From Clostridiales bacterium (GTDB lineage: Bacteria > Bacillota > Clostridia > Caldicoprobacterales > DTU083): DNA of 44,510 nucleotides. Position 1 is the stretch's first letter, and each line of letters starts with the position of its first letter. The notes under the pieces are model-generated. The model did not search any database. It had not been told where the DNA came from and worked only from the letters and a program-made list of their open reading frames with translations. This document shows positions 20,053 through 44,510 of this stretch, piece by piece. A program made the position numbers and the translations under genes. Location of the stretch: assembly GCA_012838915.1 (NCBI GenBank), contig DUOI01000062.1, positions 1 to 44,510 of the forward strand. Reading direction: 5' to 3'.

Positions 20053-20081
20053 GAGCAAGGTTTTCTTCAAAGAATATTTAT

Positions 20082-20121
20082 AATAACGACAATAAAGTAT
20101 ACTTATTGTCGTTATTTTTTT
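20082..20121 (+). terminator. Strong intrinsic terminator after ftsZ
   Basis: A perfect 14-bp inverted repeat (20082-20095 with 20103-20116) around a 7-base loop that itself contains GTATAC, followed by a T-tract to 20121. It separates the dcw cluster from the spoIIG operon. Confidence 0.9.
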
Positions 20122-20137
20122 ATCTTCGCATCCACCG

Positions 20138-33958: not shown

Positions 33959-35950
33959 ATGAACAAAGTTGATCTATTAGCAATTAATTCCATACGTATT
34001 TTATCTGCGGAAGCCGTAGAAAAAGCAAAATCCGGTCATCCCGGCATGCCCATGGGTGCTGCGCCGATGGCTTATACTCTGTGGGCAAAATCCATGAAGC
34101 ACAACCCCGCCGACCCCAAATGGGTGGACAGGGACCGCTTCATCCTCTCCGCCGGACATGCGTCTGCGCTGATCTATTCCTTACTTCATCTGTTCGGTTA
34201 TGATTTGAGTATGGATGATTTAAAGAATTTCAGACAATGGAACAGCAAAACCCCGGGTCATCCGGAATATGGCCATACAGAAGGTGTTGAGGTTACCACC
34301 GGCCCTTTGGGACAGGGAATTTCCAGCGCTGTGGGCATGGCTATGGCAGAAGCCCATCTGGCAGCTAAGTTTAACAAGCCGGGTCATGAAATAGTAAATC
34401 ATTATACATATGTTCTTTCCGGTGACGGCTGTCTTATGGAGGGTATTGCCGGTGAAGCAGCCTCCCTGGCGGGAACACTGAAGCTGGGAAAGCTCATTGT
34501 GCTGTATGACTCCAATAGAATTACCATTGAAGGAAGCACTGACCTGGCATTTACCGAAGACGTCGGAAAACGCTTTGAAGCGTATAATTGGCAGGTACTT
34601 AAAGTGGAGGACGGCAATGACATAGATGCCATTCAGGCTGCTATTGAGGAAGCCAAAAAGGAAGCCGACAAGCCTACACTGATTGAAATTCGCACTGAGA
34701 TCGGATACGGTTCTCCTGCCAAGCAGGGCAAAGCGTCTGTCCATGGAGAGCCCCTGGGTGCAGAAAACCTGTTGGAAGCCAAGAAATTCCTGGGCTACAA
34801 TACAGAAGAAGAATTCTATGTGCCCCAGGAAGTTCGGGAACATATGAAGAGTATCATGGAAAAAGGTAAAAAGGCACAGGAAGAATGGAATGCCCTTTGG
34901 GAGTCCTATAAGAAGAACTATCCTGAGCTGGCTGAGGAATGGGAAGCCTGGAACAATCCGGAGCTGCAGGTTGATCTATTGAATGATGAATCCTACTGGA
35001 CCTTTGATGAAAAACCAACAGCCACCCGTTCTTCTTCCGGTGAAGTTTTAAATCGACTTGCTAAGGTAATCCCCAACCTCATCGGAGGTTCTGCAGATCT
35101 GGGTCCTTCCAATAAATCCGTAATGAAGGACAGGGCAGTTTTCTCAGCGGATGACTATTCCGGTTCAAATATACACTTTGGTATCCGTGAGCATGCCATG
35201 GCGGCCATAGCCAACGGCATGAGCGTGCATGGAGGGTTGAAGCCCTATGTAGCCACTTTCCTGGTATTCAGTGACTACATGAAGGGAGCCATGCGCCTGT
35301 CCGCTCTGATGAAGCAGCCGGTACTTTATATCCTGACCCATGACAGCATTGGTGTCGGCGAAGACGGACCTACCCATCAGCCCATTGAACATCTGGCTTC
35401 CCTAAGAAGCATTCCCAACTTTACAGTCATCAGGCCTGCTGATTCCAGGGAAACCGCTGCCGCTTATCTTGCTGCATTGACCAGGTTGGACAGCCCCACT
35501 GCGCTGATTCTGACAAGACAGAATCTGCCATTGCTGGATGGAACAGGCCCGGATGCGCTGAAAGGTGCCTACATCCTGTCCGATTCAGAAAAGGAAACAC
35601 CGGACATCATTCTGATGGCTACCGGTTCCGAGGTTCAATTGGTTGTAGAAGCAAAGAAGATTTTGAAGGAAAAGGGTATAGATGCCAGGGTAGTCAGCAT
35701 GCCCTCCTGGAAAATCTTCGAAGAGCAGTCTGATGAATACAAGGAAAGCGTATTGCCTAAGAGCGTAAAGGCAAGGCTGGGCGTAGAAGCAGCCTCATCC
35801 TTTGGATGGCATAAATATGTCGGTCTGGACGGGGATACCGTTTCCAGAGATGATTTCGGTGCATCCGCTCCTGCCGATATTCTGTTCAAGGAATTCGGCT
35901 TTACAGTAGAGAATGTTGTTGAAAAGGCATTAAAGGTGCTGGGGAAGTAA
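33959..35950 (+). CDS. tkt: Transketolase
   Basis: Thiamine-diphosphate enzyme of the non-oxidative pentose phosphate pathway, moving two-carbon units between sugar phosphates; it also supplies ribose for PRPP, the start of the his pathway next door. N-terminal [13 protein letters not shown], the ThDP/metal loop [13 protein letters not shown] with a later DSN, the pyrimidine-domain [15 protein letters not shown] and [14 protein letters not shown], and a C-terminal [13 protein letters not shown]. 663 aa, full length. AGGAGG precedes the ATG by about 10 bases. It is a monocistronic unit between two terminators. Confidence 0.97.
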
Positions 35951-36116: not shown

Positions 36117-36917
36117 CTATATCTTAATGAATTCAGGTTTCATATCCGTAAAGGCAGTAATATATTCAAAGCCGGCATACCTAAGCAATTCCAATGCCCG
36201 CTTGTTTTCATATCCCACATATTTTACAGAATGTGCATCGGAACCGATGGTTACAATTTCACCGCCCAGCTCCCGGAACAGTTTTAATATATCCGGATGT
36301 GGATGGGGCTGTTTGGAATAATGCATGAAGCCGGCCGTATTCAGCTCCAATCCCTTGCCCTTGTCAATCAGCAGTTTAAGTACAGCTTCTACCAGTTCCC
36401 TGCCAATCCACCGATCTTCCGGATCATATGCGTAGGGCGAATATCGCCTGAAGTAATCAAGGTGGCCCAATACACAAAAATCATCATACTGCTCTAATAG
36501 CTGCAGGATGGTTTGATAATAATCAGTATAGCTTTTTATTTTGTCACGGGTATCGAAATAAATTCCAAAATAGGGGTCCTGCCCGTCTACCAGATGTACT
36601 GAAGCAATTATCAGGTCCAAAGGGTAATTGGCGGCCAGGTGGGAAGCCTGATCCAGAGTCCAGTCCTGTAAGCCTATTTCAATTCCGGTCTTTATCTTTA
36701 ACCGATCCTTAAATTTGGCCTTTACTTTTTCCAATTCCTTAATGTATTCATTCATATCCTCTATCTGAAATGCATAAGGATTGTCCGGAGCATCTATATC
36801 CATGTGATCTGTAATGGCAATTTCCCTTAAGCCTGCTTCAATTGCCCGCAGGCAGGCTTCTTCGACAGTCATATCAGCATCAGGGGAGAATGTGGAGTGA
36901 ATATGGTAATCAAACAT
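36117..36917 (-). CDS. hisJ: Histidinol-phosphatase, PHP family
   Basis: Hydrolyses histidinol phosphate to histidinol, the step between HisC and HisD. A PHP-type metallo-hydrolase of 266 aa: DYHIHSTFSPDA at the start, AITDHMDI, GIEIGLQDW, IASVHLVDG, LGHLDYFRRY and the late TIGSDAHSVKYVG, giving the full His/Asp/Glu metal set. On its strand AAAGGTGG lies about 8 bases before the ATG. It is divergent from the his operon across a 310-base region. Its neighbours make the histidinol-phosphatase role (rather than another PHP activity) very likely. Confidence 0.9.
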   Translation of the reverse strand: MFDYHIHSTFSPDADMTVEEACLRAIEAGLREIAITDHMDIDAPDNPYAFQIEDMNEYIKELEKVKAKFKDRLKIKTGIEIGLQDWTLDQASHLAANYPLDLIIASVHLVDGQDPYFGIYFDTRDKIKSYTDYYQTILQLLEQYDDFCVLGHLDYFRRYSPYAYDPEDRWIGRELVEAVLKLLIDKGKGLELNTAGFMHYSKQPHPHPDILKLFRELGGEIVTIGSDAHSVKYVGYENKRALELLRYAGFEYITAFTDMKPEFIKI

Positions 36918-36985
36918 TTAAAAGCCACCTTTTAGTTTTTGGTAAAGCTGCATTTGTTATTGCAGATTCCTGTAATATACAAAAT

Positions 36986-37014
36986 ATTGTATAACCCTTA
37001 TTTGCTGAAGTCAA
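36986..37014 (-). promoter_or_regulatory. Sigma-A promoter of hisJ
   Basis: On the minus strand TTGACT (37014-37009), a 17-base spacer and TACAAT (36991-36986). The -10 is covered by a 7-bp-arm inverted repeat (36976-36982 with 36987-36993), which might be an operator. The rest of the 36918-37227 region, outside this site and the his promoter/operator, shows nothing I can identify; no T-box motif is present. Confidence 0.55.
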
Positions 37015-37137
37015 TCAGAGGGATTGCAGCATACAGCAAACCATTTTACTTGATCTAATCCAGCCCGGCTAATAATCTCATTCTATTAATCAGTTTTGGT
37101 TGATATAAGTTTTTCCAATTTATATGTAAAACATCTA

Positions 37138-37166
37138 TTGACAGGAAGATTCAGTAAAGCTATAAT
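37138..37166 (+). promoter_or_regulatory. Consensus sigma-A promoter of the his operon
   Basis: TTGACA (37138-37143), a 17-base spacer and TATAAT (37161-37166): perfect in both boxes and spacing. Transcription should start near 37173. Confidence 0.88.
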
Positions 37167-37198
37167 ATTTACTAATTTAACGTGCTAAACTAGTAAAT
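37167..37198 (+). promoter_or_regulatory. Candidate repressor operator of the his operon
   Basis: A 13-bp inverted repeat with one mismatch (37167-37179 with 37186-37198) around ACGTGC, lying immediately after the -10 and over the expected start point. The right arm contains ACTAGT, the core of TrpR-family operators; a TrpR-like HisR/YerC repressor is a reasonable guess but is not in the window. Confidence 0.6.
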
Positions 37199-37227
37199 TA
37201 ATAAAGCGGCATCAGGTGAGGGGAAAA

Positions 37228-38445
37228 ATGAATGGTTTGATAAATAAATGGATGCAGCAGATTCCGGAAGGAGTGCAGGACTCACTTCCCGATGAGTGTT
37301 ATAACCGAAGAAAAATAGAAGACAGACTGCGCAGAATATTTTATCTGAGCGGATATGATGAGATCGATACCCCTTTGTTTGAATACCTGGACTTGTTTGC
37401 GGGGGAAACAGCCTCTCTGAAGCAGGAGCAAATGTATAAGTTTTTTGAGCCCGGCAGTCGAATTATGGTGTTGAGGCCGGATATAACCATGCCAATTGCG
37501 CGAATTGCTGCTACCAAAATGAAGGCTTACCCTCTGCCGCTGCGCTTATCATATATTGGAAGCGTTTACCGGTATGATTACCAAAGCCGCACCAGGCAGA
37601 GGGAGATTGCCCAGGCCGGCATCGAATTACTGGGTTCGCGAAAGCCGGAAGCAGATGCCGAGGTTATAGCCCTTGCGGTGGAATCACTTCTGGGATTGGG
37701 TCTTTCAGAATTTCAGATGGATATCGGTCAGGTGGAATTCTTCAAGGGGTTGGTAGAGCAAGCCGGGCTGAATGAAGAGCAATCTGAAGGTTTGAGGCGT
37801 TTAATTGATCAAAAAAACAGTCTGGCCCTGGAAATGCAGTTAAAGGAATTAAACATAAGCGCTGAAACAAAAAACAATTTACTTCAGATTCCCGTGTTGT
37901 TTGGAGGCAGGGAAGTAATCCGGTCTGCAATGGTGCTTACCAAAACAGAACGTTGTATTAAAGCCCTGCAAAATATTGATCAGGTTTACAGGCAGCTGGA
38001 GAGGTACGGCTTGTCCAAATATATTGCCATCGATCTGGGTATGGTTCAAAGCCTCAATTATTATACCGGAATGATATTCAGAGGCATGGTCAGGGATATG
38101 GGCTATCCTATCTGCGGCGGGGGCCGATATGATACATTGGTTTCAGAATTTGGTGCAGATCTTCCGGCAACCGGGTTCGCGCTGGAAACCAGGCAGCTGC
38201 TGATTGCACTGGATAGGCAAAAGGGGCTTGAACCCCCTCCGGTTTCCGATGTCCTGTTTGTATACGATTCAGTAAATGATGTTGAAGGGTATGATATGAT
38301 ACAGAGGCTCAGAAAGGGCGGACAGAGGGTAGAGGTTTATCTTTCAGATGAGAACAGCGTGTCTGCAGAAGAGCTGGCCAAAAGTAAGGGCATCCGAAAA
38401 ATAATCCGGCTGCATGCCGGAGAAATACAGGAAATAATTCCATGA
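37228..38445 (+). CDS. hisZ: ATP phosphoribosyltransferase regulatory subunit
   Basis: Catalytically inactive relative of histidyl-tRNA synthetase that activates short-form HisG and carries histidine feedback control. Class II synthetase-like blocks: PEGVQDSLPDE near the start, MYKFFEPGSRIMVLRPDITMPIAR (motif 2 region), YRYD, QAGIELLG and CGGGRYDTL late. 405 aa. ATG 37228 follows GAGGGGAA; GTG 37216 lies inside that site. It is first in the his operon, just before hisG, the usual arrangement for this pair. Confidence 0.93.
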   Translation: MNGLINKWMQQIPEGVQDSLPDECYNRRKIEDRLRRIFYLSGYDEIDTPLFEYLDLFAGETASLKQEQMYKFFEPGSRIMVLRPDITMPIARIAATKMKAYPLPLRLSYIGSVYRYDYQSRTRQREIAQAGIELLGSRKPEADAEVIALAVESLLGLGLSEFQMDIGQVEFFKGLVEQAGLNEEQSEGLRRLIDQKNSLALEMQLKELNISAETKNNLLQIPVLFGGREVIRSAMVLTKTERCIKALQNIDQVYRQLERYGLSKYIAIDLGMVQSLNYYTGMIFRGMVRDMGYPICGGGRYDTLVSEFGADLPATGFALETRQLLIALDRQKGLEPPPVSDVLFVYDSVNDVEGYDMIQRLRKGGQRVEVYLSDENSVSAEELAKSKGIRKIIRLHAGEIQEIIP

Positions 38446-38478: not shown

Positions 38479-39129
38479 GTGATAACCATTGCCCTGGCAA
38501 AAGGCCGTCTGGCGGATCAAACTCTGGACTTGCTTGAGCAGCTGGGGATTGACTGCCGGGAGATTAGAGGGGAGTCAAGAAAACTGATTTTTACAACCAA
38601 TGACGGTGCAATCCGTTTTATTCTGGTAAAACCCAGCGATGTTCCCGCCTACGTGGAATATGGAACAGCGGATATTGGCATAGCAGGCAAGGATACCTTG
38701 CTGGAAGAGGGAAGATCCCTTTATGAAATGCTGGATTTGAGGTTTGGCTGCTGCAGGCTGGTTGTTGCGGGGTATGCGGGCAGGAAAATTAACGGTATTA
38801 CCAACTCTCTTACCAGGGTTGCAACCAAGTATCCCAATATTGCCCGAAACTTCTATGCCGGCCGGGGAGAATCAGTGGAGATAATAAAACTGAACGGCTC
38901 GGTGGAGTTAGGCCCATTGACCGGCTTATCCGATGTAATTGTAGATATTGTTGAAAGCGGCAGAACCCTGGAGGAAAACGGTCTGGTGGTCCTGGAGGAG
39001 ATTTGTCCGGTCAGTGCCCGTCTGGTTGTCAATCAGGTGAGTCTGAAAACCAAACATGATGAGATCAGGAAGATAATCGAGGGACTGAGGGAATTGACGG
39101 AGGGAAAAGCAGATGATTCAAGGAATTAA
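38479..39129 (+). CDS. hisG: ATP phosphoribosyltransferase, short form
   Basis: First step of histidine synthesis: joins ATP and [21 protein letters not shown] at the N-terminus, [13 protein letters not shown], and the PRPP loop [15 protein letters not shown]. At 216 aa it lacks the C-terminal regulatory domain of long HisG, so it depends on HisZ. GTG start with AAGGGAGAG about 9 bases upstream; an ATG two bases earlier is out of frame. It overlaps hisD by 17 bases. Confidence 0.96.
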
Positions 39130-40432
39130 TGGCAGAGGAAAATCAACCGGCTGGATTCTGAACAGACTGAATCGTCCTTCCCATCTGGAGGCTGAAGATG
39201 AACGGGAAACCGTGCTGTCCATTATAAACGGGGTACTTAAGGAAGGGGATGCCGCCCTTTTGAGGTACACAAAAAAATACGATAAGGCTGACCTGGCTGA
39301 TCCTCAGGATATGCGGGTTACTGAAGAGGAAATACAGGAAGCATATGACAGCACTTCTCCGGAACTGGTAAAAATTCTGGAAAGAGCAGCAGAGAGAATC
39401 CGCCGCTTCCATGCCAGGCAAAAGACGGAAACCTGGCTTTGCTTTGATGAAAAGGATATTATTCTGGGCCAAAAGGTAATTCCTATGGAGCGGGTAGGCG
39501 TATATGTTCCGGGAGGAAAAGCGGCTTATCCGTCTTCTGTACTTATGAACGTAATTCCTGCCCGGGTAGCAGGAGTGGATGAAATTATTATGGTATCTCC
39601 TCCCGGGGGAGACGGCAGGATTCACCCCTCCATTCTGGCTGCGGCAAAAGTGGCAGGTGTTGATCATATTTATCGGGCGGGCGGGGCACAGGCCATAGCA
39701 GCACTGGCCTATGGAACTGGAACCATTCCAAAGGTTGATAAAATTGTAGGCCCCGGCAATATTTATGTGGCACTGGCCAAAAAAGAAGTATTCGGACATG
39801 TGGACATTGATATGATAGCAGGCCCCAGCGAAATAGTGGTTGTTGCAGACAAATCAGCCAGGCCTTCATATGTGGCAGCAGACCTGATGTCCCAGGCTGA
39901 ACACGATGAAATGGCTGTCCCTGTTCTGATTACCGATTCAGAGGAAATTTTTGCATCTGTTTTGCAGGAACTAGAGAGACAGACAGCGAAACTACCATCA
40001 AAGGACATAATTCTATCTTCTTTGCAGCATTATGGTGCATGTATACTTGTAGATTCCATAGAGAAAGGGATTGAATTGTCCAATGCCCTGGCACCGGAAC
40101 ATCTTGAGCTGGCTGTAGAAAATCCAATGGAACTGCTGGCACGGGTCAGGCATGCGGGTGCTGTATTTCTTGGGCACTATACACCAGAACCGGTGGGCGA
40201 TTATATGGCCGGCCCCAATCATGTACTTCCTACCGGTGGAACTGCACGCTTTTTTTCTCCCCTGAGCGTGGAGGATTTTGTAAAGAAATCCAGTATCATC
40301 TTCTATGGCAGAGAAGCACTCAGGGGAGTGTATGAAAACGTGGCCGATTTTGCCCGGATGGAAGGGCTGCCGGCCCATGCCAATGCCATGGAAGTGAGGT
40401 TTTATAAAGATGAGGATGGAATACCTTCGTGA
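39113..40432 (+). CDS. hisD: Histidinol dehydrogenase
   Basis: Zinc-dependent enzyme that oxidises histidinol to histidine with two NAD, the last two steps. The main blocks are [78 protein letters not shown] and [14 protein letters not shown], with the metal His and Asp residues in place. 439 aa, full length. It overlaps hisG by 17 bases and hisC by 23, showing tight packing. Confidence 0.97.
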
Positions 40433-41486
40433 GGATCTCAGAAGCCTAAAGGCATACCAGGTAGTGCAGGAAACCTGTACCTTGAAGCTGGATGCCAATG
40501 AAAGCCCTTTTCCAGTTCCCCTGGAAATCAGGGCCCAGTTAGCTACGGAATTGCTGAACGGCAGCAACTTTCAGCTTTATCCCGATACCAATGCCGACCC
40601 TCTCAGGGATGCACTGGCAAAGCAGCTTGAACTGGAGCGGGAAAATATTCTTATCGGAAACGGCTCAGACGAGCTGCTCCATATTGTTACCACTGCCTTT
40701 GCAGGGCCTGGAGACAGGGTTCTTTGTCCTTCTCCGGGATTTGGCATGGTGAGCTATTATGCCCGCCTTACAGGGGCAGTACCCGTAGATTACTCATTGA
40801 ATGAAAGGTTCCAGTATTCCCTGCCCCAGATTGAGAAGAGCATTATTGAACATCAGCCCAAAATTCTGCATATATGTACCCCCAACAATCCCACCGGCGG
40901 CACAATGGCAGTTTCCGATATAGCCAGCCTGGCCCGGTGGTATGACGGCGTTGTAGTTGTGGATGAAGCCTATTACGAGTTCCACGGTGAAACCACGGTT
41001 TCAATGATAAACCGGCTTCCCAATGTGGTGGTGCTTCGCACCTTCTCCAAGGCAATGGGTTTAGCCGGACTGCGGGTGGGCTATCTCATATGCAACAAAT
41101 ATTTGGCCAGGGAAATTTACAAGGTCAAGCCTCCTTATAATGTCAACGGCTTTTCTCAAAGAGCAGCTGAACTTATGCTGGAACACAGGGATATTCAGAT
41201 GGAGCGGGTCAGGGAAATTGTTGAAGCCAGGGAATGGTTGTACCAGGCATTGGAAGGCTTAAGAGGCATTGACCCCTATCCTTCACGGGCCAATTTTATA
41301 TTGATCAAGGTTAAGGACGCTGCTGCCTTTTATAAGGGGTTGCTGGAAAAGGGTATCCTGGTGAAACATTTTGCAGATAATCCGGTGCTTAAAAACCACC
41401 TGCGCATCACCATTGGCCGGAAGGATGACAATAAGTATATCCTGCACAGCCTGGCAGAGATACTAACCAATATGGAGGACTGGTAA
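40410..41486 (+). CDS. hisC: Histidinol-phosphate aminotransferase
   Basis: PLP enzyme that converts imidazole-acetol phosphate plus glutamate to histidinol phosphate. Fold-type I motifs: LDANESPFPVP, GNGSDELL, CTPNNPTGG, VVDEAYYEF and the PLP lysine K214 in TFSKAMGLAGLRVGY. 358 aa. The start is ATG 40410 (GAGGT 10 bases upstream) or ATG 40416. The stop shares TAATG with hisB. Confidence 0.95.
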   Translation: MRMEYLREDLRSLKAYQVVQETCTLKLDANESPFPVPLEIRAQLATELLNGSNFQLYPDTNADPLRDALAKQLELERENILIGNGSDELLHIVTTAFAGPGDRVLCPSPGFGMVSYYARLTGAVPVDYSLNERFQYSLPQIEKSIIEHQPKILHICTPNNPTGGTMAVSDIASLARWYDGVVVVDEAYYEFHGETTVSMINRLPNVVVLRTFSKAMGLAGLRVGYLICNKYLAREIYKVKPPYNVNGFSQRAAELMLEHRDIQMERVREIVEAREWLYQALEGLRGIDPYPSRANFILIKVKDAAAFYKGLLEKGILVKHFADNPVLKNHLRITIGRKDDNKYILHSLAEILTNMEDW

Positions 41487-42076
41487 TGGAACGTTTCGGA
41501 AAGGCAGATCGGAGGACTACAGAAACCCAGGCAGCTGTGGAAATAAACCTGGACGGCAAGGGCAGGAACAATTGCAAAACAGGTATCGGTTTCTTTGACC
41601 ACATGCTGACTTTACTGGCAGCTCACGGCAGCTTTGACCTGAATGTAGAGGCGAAGGGCGATCTGGAGGTAGACGGGCATCATACGGTGGAAGATACAGG
41701 CATTGTTTTCGGCAAGGCTTTTCGCCGGGCATTGGGTGATAAAAAGGGTATTAGAAGGTACGGCACATCCTTTGTGCCCATGGATGAATCGCTGGCCATG
41801 GTCAGTCTGGATATCAGCGGCAGACCATATCTTCATATGGAGTTTCCCGGCCCGGCCTCCATGGCAGGGGATTTTGACACCCAGCTGCTGGAAGAGTTCC
41901 TCCGGGCTTTTTCCATCCATGGGGGCATAACCCTTCACGTGCGGGTGTTATATGGCCGAAATACCCATCATATGCTGGAGGCCATGTTTAAGGCAATTGG
42001 AAGAAGCCTGCGGCAGGCAGTGAGCATAGATTCTCAATGGGAAGGCATCCCGTCCACCAAAGGGCTGCTTGATTAG
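41486..42076 (+). CDS. hisB: Imidazoleglycerol-phosphate dehydratase
   Basis: Dehydrates IGP to imidazole-acetol phosphate. Monofunctional (196 aa; no phosphatase domain, that role being filled by hisJ). Metal-binding blocks: GFFDHML, DGHHTVEDTGI and late HHMLEAMFKAIGRSL; RRYGTSFVPMDESL lies between. The 40 bases after it, where hisH is usual, hold no gene. Confidence 0.96.
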   Translation: MERFGKADRRTTETQAAVEINLDGKGRNNCKTGIGFFDHMLTLLAAHGSFDLNVEAKGDLEVDGHHTVEDTGIVFGKAFRRALGDKKGIRRYGTSFVPMDESLAMVSLDISGRPYLHMEFPGPASMAGDFDTQLLEEFLRAFSIHGGITLHVRVLYGRNTHHMLEAMFKAIGRSLRQAVSIDSQWEGIPSTKGLLD

Positions 42077-42116: not shown

Positions 42117-42842
42117 ATGATTATTTTTCCTGCAATTGACATAAAGGGCGGCAGATGTGTGCGGCTTTTGCAAGGCCGTGCGGAGGATGAAACTGTGTAT
42201 GGAAACAATCCGGTGGAGACGGCCCGCATATGGGAGGAGCAAGGGGCAGAATTTCTGCATGTTGTGGACCTGGATGGAGCTTTTGGCGGCGGTTCACCCA
42301 ATGAGGAGATTATAAGAAATATGGCTGAGAGTGTTTCCATCCCCATTCAGCTGGGGGGAGGAATACGCTCCATGGATAGAATTCATCGTTTCTTGGATGA
42401 ATATGGAATCCGAAGAGTAATTCTAGGTACAGCCGCAGTAGAAAATACCAAGCTGCTGGAACAGGCAGTTAAGCGATACGGAAACCGGATTGCAGCAGGT
42501 ATAGACGCGAGAAAGGGTAAGGCCGCCATAAAGGGCTGGGTGAAAGAAACAGATTTATCCGCTGTGGAGCTTGGACTGAAAATGAAGGAAGTTGGAATAG
42601 ACACCATAATCTACACCGATATTGCAAAGGACGGCATGCTGGAGGGTCCAAATTTGAGGGAGACTCAGGAGATGATAGAACGAACCGGTTTGAACATAAT
42701 CGCCTCAGGCGGCATCACCTCTTTACCGGACTTGCAGCAGATAAGGCAGATAGGTGCGGCCGGTGCAATAATCGGTAAAGCATTATACACCGGAGCAATA
42801 GAATTATCCGGTGCATTAAGAATAGGAAGAGAGGCAGAATGA
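42117..42842 (+). CDS. hisA: ProFAR isomerase
   Basis: TIM-barrel isomerase that converts ProFAR to PRFAR. FPAIDIKGGRCVRLLQG with Asp8 as one catalytic residue, HVVDLDGAFGG, IPIQLGGGIRS and TDIAKDGMLEGPN with the second Asp; ASGGITSLPDL near the end. 241 aa. GAAAGGTTGAG precedes the ATG. The stop shares ATGA with hisF. Confidence 0.96.
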   Translation: MIIFPAIDIKGGRCVRLLQGRAEDETVYGNNPVETARIWEEQGAEFLHVVDLDGAFGGGSPNEEIIRNMAESVSIPIQLGGGIRSMDRIHRFLDEYGIRRVILGTAAVENTKLLEQAVKRYGNRIAAGIDARKGKAAIKGWVKETDLSAVELGLKMKEVGIDTIIYTDIAKDGMLEGPNLRETQEMIERTGLNIIASGGITSLPDLQQIRQIGAAGAIIGKALYTGAIELSGALRIGREAE

Positions 42843-43609
42843 GCCGGATAAGAGTGATTCCCTGCCTGGATATTTCAAACGGGCGGGTGGTAAAAGGTGT
42901 AAACTTCAGGAATATAAAGGATGCGGGTGATCCCGTTGAAATTGCTGCTGCATACAGTCAAAGCGGCGCTGACGAACTTGTTCTTCTGGATATTTCAGCC
43001 GGTCGGCAGGGCAGGAAAATGCTGCTTGATCTGGTTGGAAGAATTGCAGAACAGATTAGCGTTCCCTTTACCGTCGGGGGAGGAATAGTAAGCATTAAAG
43101 ATATGGAAGATGTATTCCAGGCCGGAGCGGATAGGATTTCTGTCAATTCAGCGGCCCTGAGGAGACCGGAGATAATCTCAGAAGCAGCAGAGCGATTTGG
43201 AAGCAAAAGCATAATGGTGGCAATTGACGCCAGGCGCGGAATAGACGGCGGTTATGAAGTATATTCAGACGGAGGCTATACAAGAGCCAGCCGTGATGCT
43301 TTGGAATGGGCAAGGGAAGCGGAACTGCTGGGAGCCGGTGAAATTCTGCTTACCAGTATGGATACCGACGGAACCAGGGACGGCTACGATATTCATCTTA
43401 CCAAATCAGTGGCACGGACTGTTCGGATTCCTGTCATAGCCTCGGGCGGCGCAGGCAGTCCGGAACATTTTTACAGAGCAATTGTCGAAGGCGGTGCCAG
43501 CGGAGTTTTAGCTGCCTCATTATTCCATTATGGGGAGCTGGCCATTATGGATGTGAAAAGATATCTGCAGGATAAGGGAGTACCAGTAAATATGGAGATA
43601 AACCGATGA
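42839..43609 (+). CDS. hisF: Imidazole-glycerol-phosphate synthase cyclase subunit
   Basis: TIM-barrel lyase/cyclase that turns PRFAR and ammonia into IGP and [24 protein letters not shown] with Asp11, [16 protein letters not shown] with Asp130, and [13 protein letters not shown] are all present. 256 aa. It normally receives ammonia from HisH through the barrel, yet hisH is not in this operon. ATGA overlaps on both sides, with hisA and hisIE. Confidence 0.96.
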
Positions 43610-44265
43610 TGGGTCTATTGAAGCAATTGAAATTTGATGAGTACGGGTTGATACCAGCCATTGTGCAGGATGCTGAAAGCGGCCAGGTTCTGATGCTCGG
43701 CTATATGAACAGGGAAGCAGTAAAAAAGAGTCTTCAGACAGGAAAAACCCATTTCTGGAGCCGCAGCAGAAAAAAACTCTGGATGAAGGGTGAAAGCTCA
43801 GGACATATTCAATCCATAAAGGAAGCATATTTTGACTGTGATAAGGATGTGCTGCTATTCAAAGTAAAGCAGACAACTGCAGCCTGCCATACCGGGCATT
43901 ATTCCTGTTTTTATAGCAGAATTGATGATGATTATGGTATAATAGAAGATAATGAGCCGGTTTTTCAACCGGACAAGGTATACTCAGATGCTTCAATTCT
44001 GAAAGAGCTGTACGGGGTTGTGGCTGACCGAAAAGCTCATCCCAGGGAAGGCTCCTATACCAATTATCTTTTTGAAAAGGGCTTGGACAAAATCCTGAAA
44101 AAAGTTGGTGAAGAATCGGCAGAGGTAATCATTGCCTCCAAGAATTGTTCCAATGATGAAATTATCTGCGAAACAGCGGATTTAATATATCATCTGATTG
44201 TTCTGCTTGTAGAGCAGGGAGTTACCTTGGATGACATTTACAGCGAATTGAAAAAAAGAAGATAA
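43606..44265 (+). CDS. hisI: Fused PRAMP cyclohydrolase / PRATP pyrophosphatase
   Basis: Bifunctional enzyme (HisIE) for steps 2 and 3 of the pathway. Residues 1 to about 110 are HisI ([29 protein letters not shown], and the Cys/His zinc motif [12 protein letters not shown]). From about residue 125 to the end is HisE ([35 protein letters not shown]). 219 aa. Last gene of the operon; a short GC-poor hairpin (44268-44285) follows but has no T-run. Confidence 0.95.
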
Positions 44266-44362: not shown

Positions 44363-44438
44363 GGGAGCATAGCTCAGCTGGGAGAGCACCTGCCTTACAA
44401 GCAGGGGGTCATAGGTTCGAGCCCTATTGCTCCCACCA
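44363..44438 (+). tRNA. tRNA-Val (anticodon UAC)
   Basis: A full cloverleaf: acceptor GGGAGCA with TGCTCCC, D-arm GCTC/GAGC, anticodon stem CCTGC/GCAGG around TAC, T-arm ATAGG/CCTAT with TTCGAGC, and an encoded CCA end. 76 bases. Confidence 0.97.
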
Positions 44439-44441
44439 AAT

Positions 44442-44510
44442 GGCCCGGTAGTTCAGATGGTTAGAATGCCAGCCTGTCACGCTGGAGGTCGAGGGTTCGA
44501 GCCCCTTCCG
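44442..44510 (+). tRNA. tRNA-Asp (anticodon GUC), 3' partial
   Basis: Starts GGCCCGG; the anticodon stem CCAGC/GCTGG carries GTC; the T-arm GAGGG/CCCCT-type with TTCGAGC follows. The window ends within the 3' acceptor strand. It lies 3 bases after tRNA-Val and would be part of the same transcript. Confidence 0.95.

Follow-up and report, generated by a model that had tools for sequence, protein, structure and literature searches.

HisR (YerC) is the published histidine repressor of Firmicutes and belongs to the TrpR family (PMC9413887). Its described operators are 20-bp palindromes with a TTTA-N6-TAAA core (consensus, cacTTTAnnnnnnTAAAgtg), they control the his operon and the hisR gene itself, and the R. 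gnavus protein binds DNA in a histidine-dependent manner (PMC9413887). Phylogenetic footprinting has also assigned to HisR a motif that is conserved across Clostridia in front of hisZ (PMC3828012). In the same fold family, E. coli TrpR recognizes a different half-site sequence and responds to a different effector, and its dimers occupy tandem sites, a binding that is reported to be cooperative on synthetic operators (PMC8745587; PDB 1TRR). HisR, its palindrome, and the his operon as its target are thus already known. At the his promoter described here, in contrast to the operators as described in PMC9413887, the palindrome is the center of an array of five half-sites repeated every 8 bp. We found no description of such an array in the text of the papers searched on HisR, YerC, and TrpR operators; supplements and figures fall outside that scope, so a published logo might show one (PMC9413887, PMC3828012).

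We analyzed a 44,510-nucleotide stretch of DNA from a Clostridiales bacterium, referred to as the window. It carries on its forward strand the genes hisZ (37228 to 38445; TIGR00443, 343 bits), hisG (38479 to 39129; TIGR00070), hisD (39113 to 40432; TIGR00069), hisC (40410 to 41486; TIGR01141), hisB (41486 to 42076; NF002111 and others), hisA (42117 to 42842; TIGR00007), hisF (42839 to 43609; TIGR00735), and hisIE (43606 to 44265; NF002747). No hisH lies between hisB and hisA, and the genome, which is 97% complete, has no match to TIGR01855; HisF here may use ammonia or another amidotransferase. Among 30 genomes of the order, six have a TIGR01855 match over the cutoff. Divergent from the operon, on the reverse strand, is a gene for a HisJ-family histidinol-phosphatase (36117 to 36917; TIGR01856, 177.6 bits; cutoff, 90.2), an enzyme that would provide the phosphatase step otherwise missing from the operon. 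By eye, we saw no HisR array in the promoter of this gene. Near the his genes is an open reading frame that we named by eye as transketolase-like (33959 to 35950); in C. acetobutylicum, tkt belongs to the his operon (PMC3828012). Two tRNA genes directly follow hisIE (44363 to 44510), the second of which is cut by the end of the window.

The his promoter, TTGACA-N17-TATAAT (37138 to 37166, forward strand), matches the consensus at 12 of 12 positions, as does no other sequence in the window. Directly 3' of its −10 hexamer begins an inverted repeat with 13-bp arms (37167 to 37179 and 37186 to 37198), one mismatch, and a 6-bp spacer. A first-pass annotation of this DNA had reported this promoter, this repeat, and their immediate succession, and we confirmed all three. 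We shuffled the 310 bp that separate the divergent hisJ-family gene from hisZ (36918 to 37227) with dinucleotides preserved and found a comparably good repeat (13-bp arms, at most one mismatch, and a spacer of 0 to 12) in 10 of 1,000 shuffles (1%); on this result, we rejected a chance palindrome. One further place in the window (about 20081 to 20117) contains a repeat of this quality, and it is terminator-like: a perfect inverted repeat with T residues after it lies 3' of an open reading frame (20081 to 20130) and is likely a terminator.

The description of the repeat as a palindrome was correct as far as it went but incomplete, because a third right-hand TAAA continues an 8-bp series. We found that the palindrome, which is real, is part of an array (37168 to 37205) that reads TTTA-N4-TTTA-N6-TAAA-N4-TAAA-N4-TAAA, with five half-sites at an 8-bp pitch, two pointing left and three pointing right (2+3). 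Neither the repeat nor any element of the array is assigned a strand. The central 20-bp HisR palindrome (37173 to 37192) has its dyad between 37182 and 37183 and the core TTTA-ACGTGC-TAAA, which comprises the left inner half-site (37176 to 37179) and the right inner half-site (37186 to 37189). Of the 14 positions of the published HisR consensus, it matches 10, and it has the full TTTA-N6-TAAA core (8 of 8). The outer half-sites are a TTTA at −8 (37168 to 37171) and two TAAA units, at +8 (37194 to 37197) and at +16 (37202 to 37205). Evenly spaced half-sites thus flank a central palindrome, which is a TrpR-like tandem layout. The step between tandem TrpR dimers is 8 bp. All 20 of the 20 fixed positions of the array are present, and the best nonoverlapping match elsewhere in the window has 14 of 20. 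An exact three-half-site pattern occurs in the organism's own 2.18-Mb genome at one place, this operator, versus eight matches for the reversed control. Genome-wide, a 23-bp pattern with up to two mismatches was nonspecific, with 56 matches versus 91 for its reversed control.

The first-pass annotation had suggested control by a TrpR-family repressor and had named a yerC/hisR gene as the one to look for. We found exactly one TrpR-family match in the genome (2.18 Mb in 149 contigs, 97% complete), and it is of the YerC type. This hisR gene lies on a different contig from the his operon (C82, 26298 to 26606, reverse strand; TIGR02531, 145.8 bits; cutoff, 42.2), and its neighbors are pcrA-like, ssb-like, and pdaB-like genes. 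The closest solved relatives of its product are 3frw, 3kor, and 3g1c, the last of which is the HisR structure discussed in PMC9413887. An AlphaFold2 model of the protein (mean pLDDT, 89) matches the same three structures and also, at a greater distance, E. coli TrpR, both in its operator complex (1tro) and in its tandem complex (1trr). These fold-search matches show only a shared TrpR fold and not function.

In this genome, the exact three-half-site pattern is at the his promoter alone. A shorter, three-half-site version of the array lies upstream of hisR, over a promoter that we read by eye as TTCAAT-N17-TAAAAT. Five of 11 other hisR loci tested from the same family also have three-half-site versions. 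With a stricter choice of start, applied to 23 of 30 hisR loci, a core of at least 7 of 8 was found upstream of hisR in 12 loci and in none of the other 11; the 12 have three half-sites in six cases, four in one, and two in five. In a relative (G027), a HisR-type array with one mismatch lies at about 1501 to 1530 of the locus examined (L073), just upstream of a gene for an amino acid ABC transporter that is perhaps a histidine importer. That genome has no HisZ match at an E value of 1e−55. The position of this array agrees with the published control of histidine transporters by HisR (PMC9413887).

We then compared hisZ upstream regions across the order and the class, scoring the palindrome against a threshold set at the 95% quantile of shuffled sequence. 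Three rows were dropped before counting, one with a HisZ truncated at its start (L026) and two with too little upstream DNA (L186 and L193). The palindrome reached the threshold in 67 of 106 regions and fell below it in 39. The class sample covered 91 of 110 hisZ-bearing genomes. In it, the palindrome was present in 53 of 72 genomes with hisR versus 2 of 19 without it (Fisher test, 7e−7). Of the 24 points possible for the array, a score of 17 or more, which 5.8% of shuffles reach, was found in 55 of the 72 genomes with hisR, with 17 below it, versus 3 of the 19 without; these three are 61, 61, and 72% complete. Within one family (f13), the site was below the threshold in both of the hisR-lacking genomes examined (G129 and G174) and present in three with hisR (G075, G102, and G216). 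In a set of GTDB loci that overlaps the order and class set, the array score was at least 17 in 61 of 78 usable loci (of 80).

The repeat is therefore conserved in the his promoters of relatives and follows the presence of hisR. The two outcomes that had been named as fatal to TrpR-family control, no TrpR-like gene in the genome and no conservation of the repeat, did not occur, and the main idea holds. Judged by sequence, the element is very likely the operator through which HisR, as a histidine repressor of the TrpR family, would control the his operon.

We also scanned the flanks of the 67 related sites, which had been picked by the central 20 bp alone, for exact half-sites. We found them at −8 in 41 sites, at −16 in 29, at +8 in 25, and at +16 in 8, and at all other offsets from 4 to 32 in 0 to 6 of the 67. 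Among 167 sites from shuffled sequence, the rates at offsets 8 and 16 were 0 to 2%. When each family contributed a single site (26 families of 39), 14 sites had a half-site at −8, 8 at −16, 11 at +8, and 1 at +16. The commonest outer units, read outward from the dyad, are GTGATAAA and GCGATAAA (22 of 95). The place of the inversion varies while the pitch stays constant: the window has 2+3, many relatives have 3+1, 3+2, 2+2, or 1+2, and a few have 4+1 or 1+4. Several half-sites are present in Caldicoprobacter oshimai, Clostridium pascui, Natronincola peptidivorans, and Anaerovirgula multivorans. In 30 genomes, an exact four-half-site pattern is at the hisZ promoter in all five genomes that have one (G000, G003, G007, G016, and G029); with up to one mismatch, there are also further, mostly unexamined matches (20 of 30 genomes).

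In all 72 class genomes with hisR, this gene lies either more than 10 kb from hisZ or on a different contig. For regions outside the class, we found sites in 16 of 25 with an unlinked hisR and in 9 of 40 upstream of hisR-hisZ pairs. Extra half-sites accompany 14 of the 16 unlinked sites versus 3 of the 9 before pairs (Fisher test, 0.01), in a small sample in which several unlinked sites share families. Because linkage and lineage are confounded, the tie between array length and linkage is suggestive only.

Alternatively, the element might be a HisR operator that functions through its central 20-bp palindrome alone, with the outer TTTA and TAAA units being decayed duplicates or the A+T-rich background of a promoter. 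The published motif is 20 bp long, and one 20-bp site placed between runs of G sufficed for binding by R. gnavus HisR in vitro (PMC9413887), so the outer half-sites are unnecessary for binding as such. In addition, 3 of the 9 sites before hisR-hisZ clusters have outer half-sites, and good palindromes also occur in some genomes that lack exact outer units, such as those of family f44, where three loci (L160, L164, and L165) have good 20-bp HisR palindromes and no array. The YerC match in the f44 genomes is weak and partial (43 to 48 bits over about 56 to 58 of 88 positions), perhaps reflecting a divergent HisR. Against background or decay, however, stands the register: at least one extra half-site lies exactly 8 or 16 bp out in 58 of the 67 sites from the order and class, whereas seven control pairs of offsets gave one in 1 to 8 of 67, and the sites come from 26 families. 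We consider a central-only operator unlikely.

We also weighed a TrpR-type, tryptophan-responsive operator, as suggested by the ACTAGT in the right arm (37189 to 37194), which the first-pass annotation had pointed out as the core of TrpR operators. The hexamer is present, the HisR protein is in the same Pfam family (PF01371), and the upstream region of the window matches the TrpR consensus, TGTAcTnGTnnACnAgTACA, at up to 11 of 16 positions, which exceeds the median of 9 for the 67 related regions. The argument from ACTAGT fails, however: the hexamer is out of TrpR register. The dyad itself matches that consensus at 5 of 16 positions versus 10 of 14 for HisR, and ACTAGT occurs in merely 2 of the 67 related operators. 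Moreover, the sole PF01371 match in the genome scores only 25.8 bits on the TrpR equivalog model TIGR01321, far under its cutoff of 67.25. Given the poor match at the dyad and the lack of conservation of ACTAGT, we rejected this reading as extremely improbable.

It is equally hard to credit that the his leader forms an RNA hairpin, a T-box, or an attenuator, for which the repeat could pair if transcription started upstream of it, and we rejected this reading on the Rfam search and leader folding: no leader family reaches the Rfam gathering score in the window, where only two tRNAs do, and the first-pass annotation had likewise seen no T-box upstream of hisZ; five leader stretches from four genomes fold at z scores of −0.8 to 1.5, no better than shuffles; the start is expected inside the left arm; and in many relatives the array is a lopsided direct repeat (3+1 or 4+1) that is unable to pair fully.

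Our preferred reading is an extended, five-half-site HisR operator on which tandem dimers would block the his promoter, and we give this explanation as a whole a probability of roughly 0.8. Weighing against it are the 39 of 106 regions under the palindrome threshold, the 17 genomes that have hisR but score under 17 for the array, the few hisR-lacking genomes with a site, and the eight matches of the reversed three-half-site control. By analogy with DNA binding by R. gnavus HisR and with the tandem complexes of TrpR, histidine would act as the corepressor. When histidine is plentiful, a HisR dimer would occupy the central palindrome, and more dimers would bind cooperatively side by side at 8-bp steps, one for each outer half-site. 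That tandem dimers sit on the outer half-sites is probable on this analogy. The array begins 2 bp past the −10 hexamer and should run through the transcription start, and its occupancy should therefore exclude RNA polymerase. When histidine falls, HisR would dissociate, and the his operon would be transcribed.

For Clostridia-type Firmicutes in general, we suggest, tentatively and at somewhat less than even odds, that his operators are arrays of tuned length on which cooperative HisR dimers line up, as many as four where there are five half-sites, and that this gives a steep response to histidine. The length would be set by the place of hisR: long where hisR is unlinked, and short at the promoter of hisR itself and where hisR is directly upstream of hisZ. 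The array extends the published 20-bp motif to a fuller description of the operator of a widespread amino acid repressor. Searches for HisR targets may gain precision from it, as a search with the exact three-half-site pattern picks out only this operator in its genome. It also offers a direct test of whether proteins with the TrpR fold generally bind their operators cooperatively and in tandem, as is known for E. coli TrpR.
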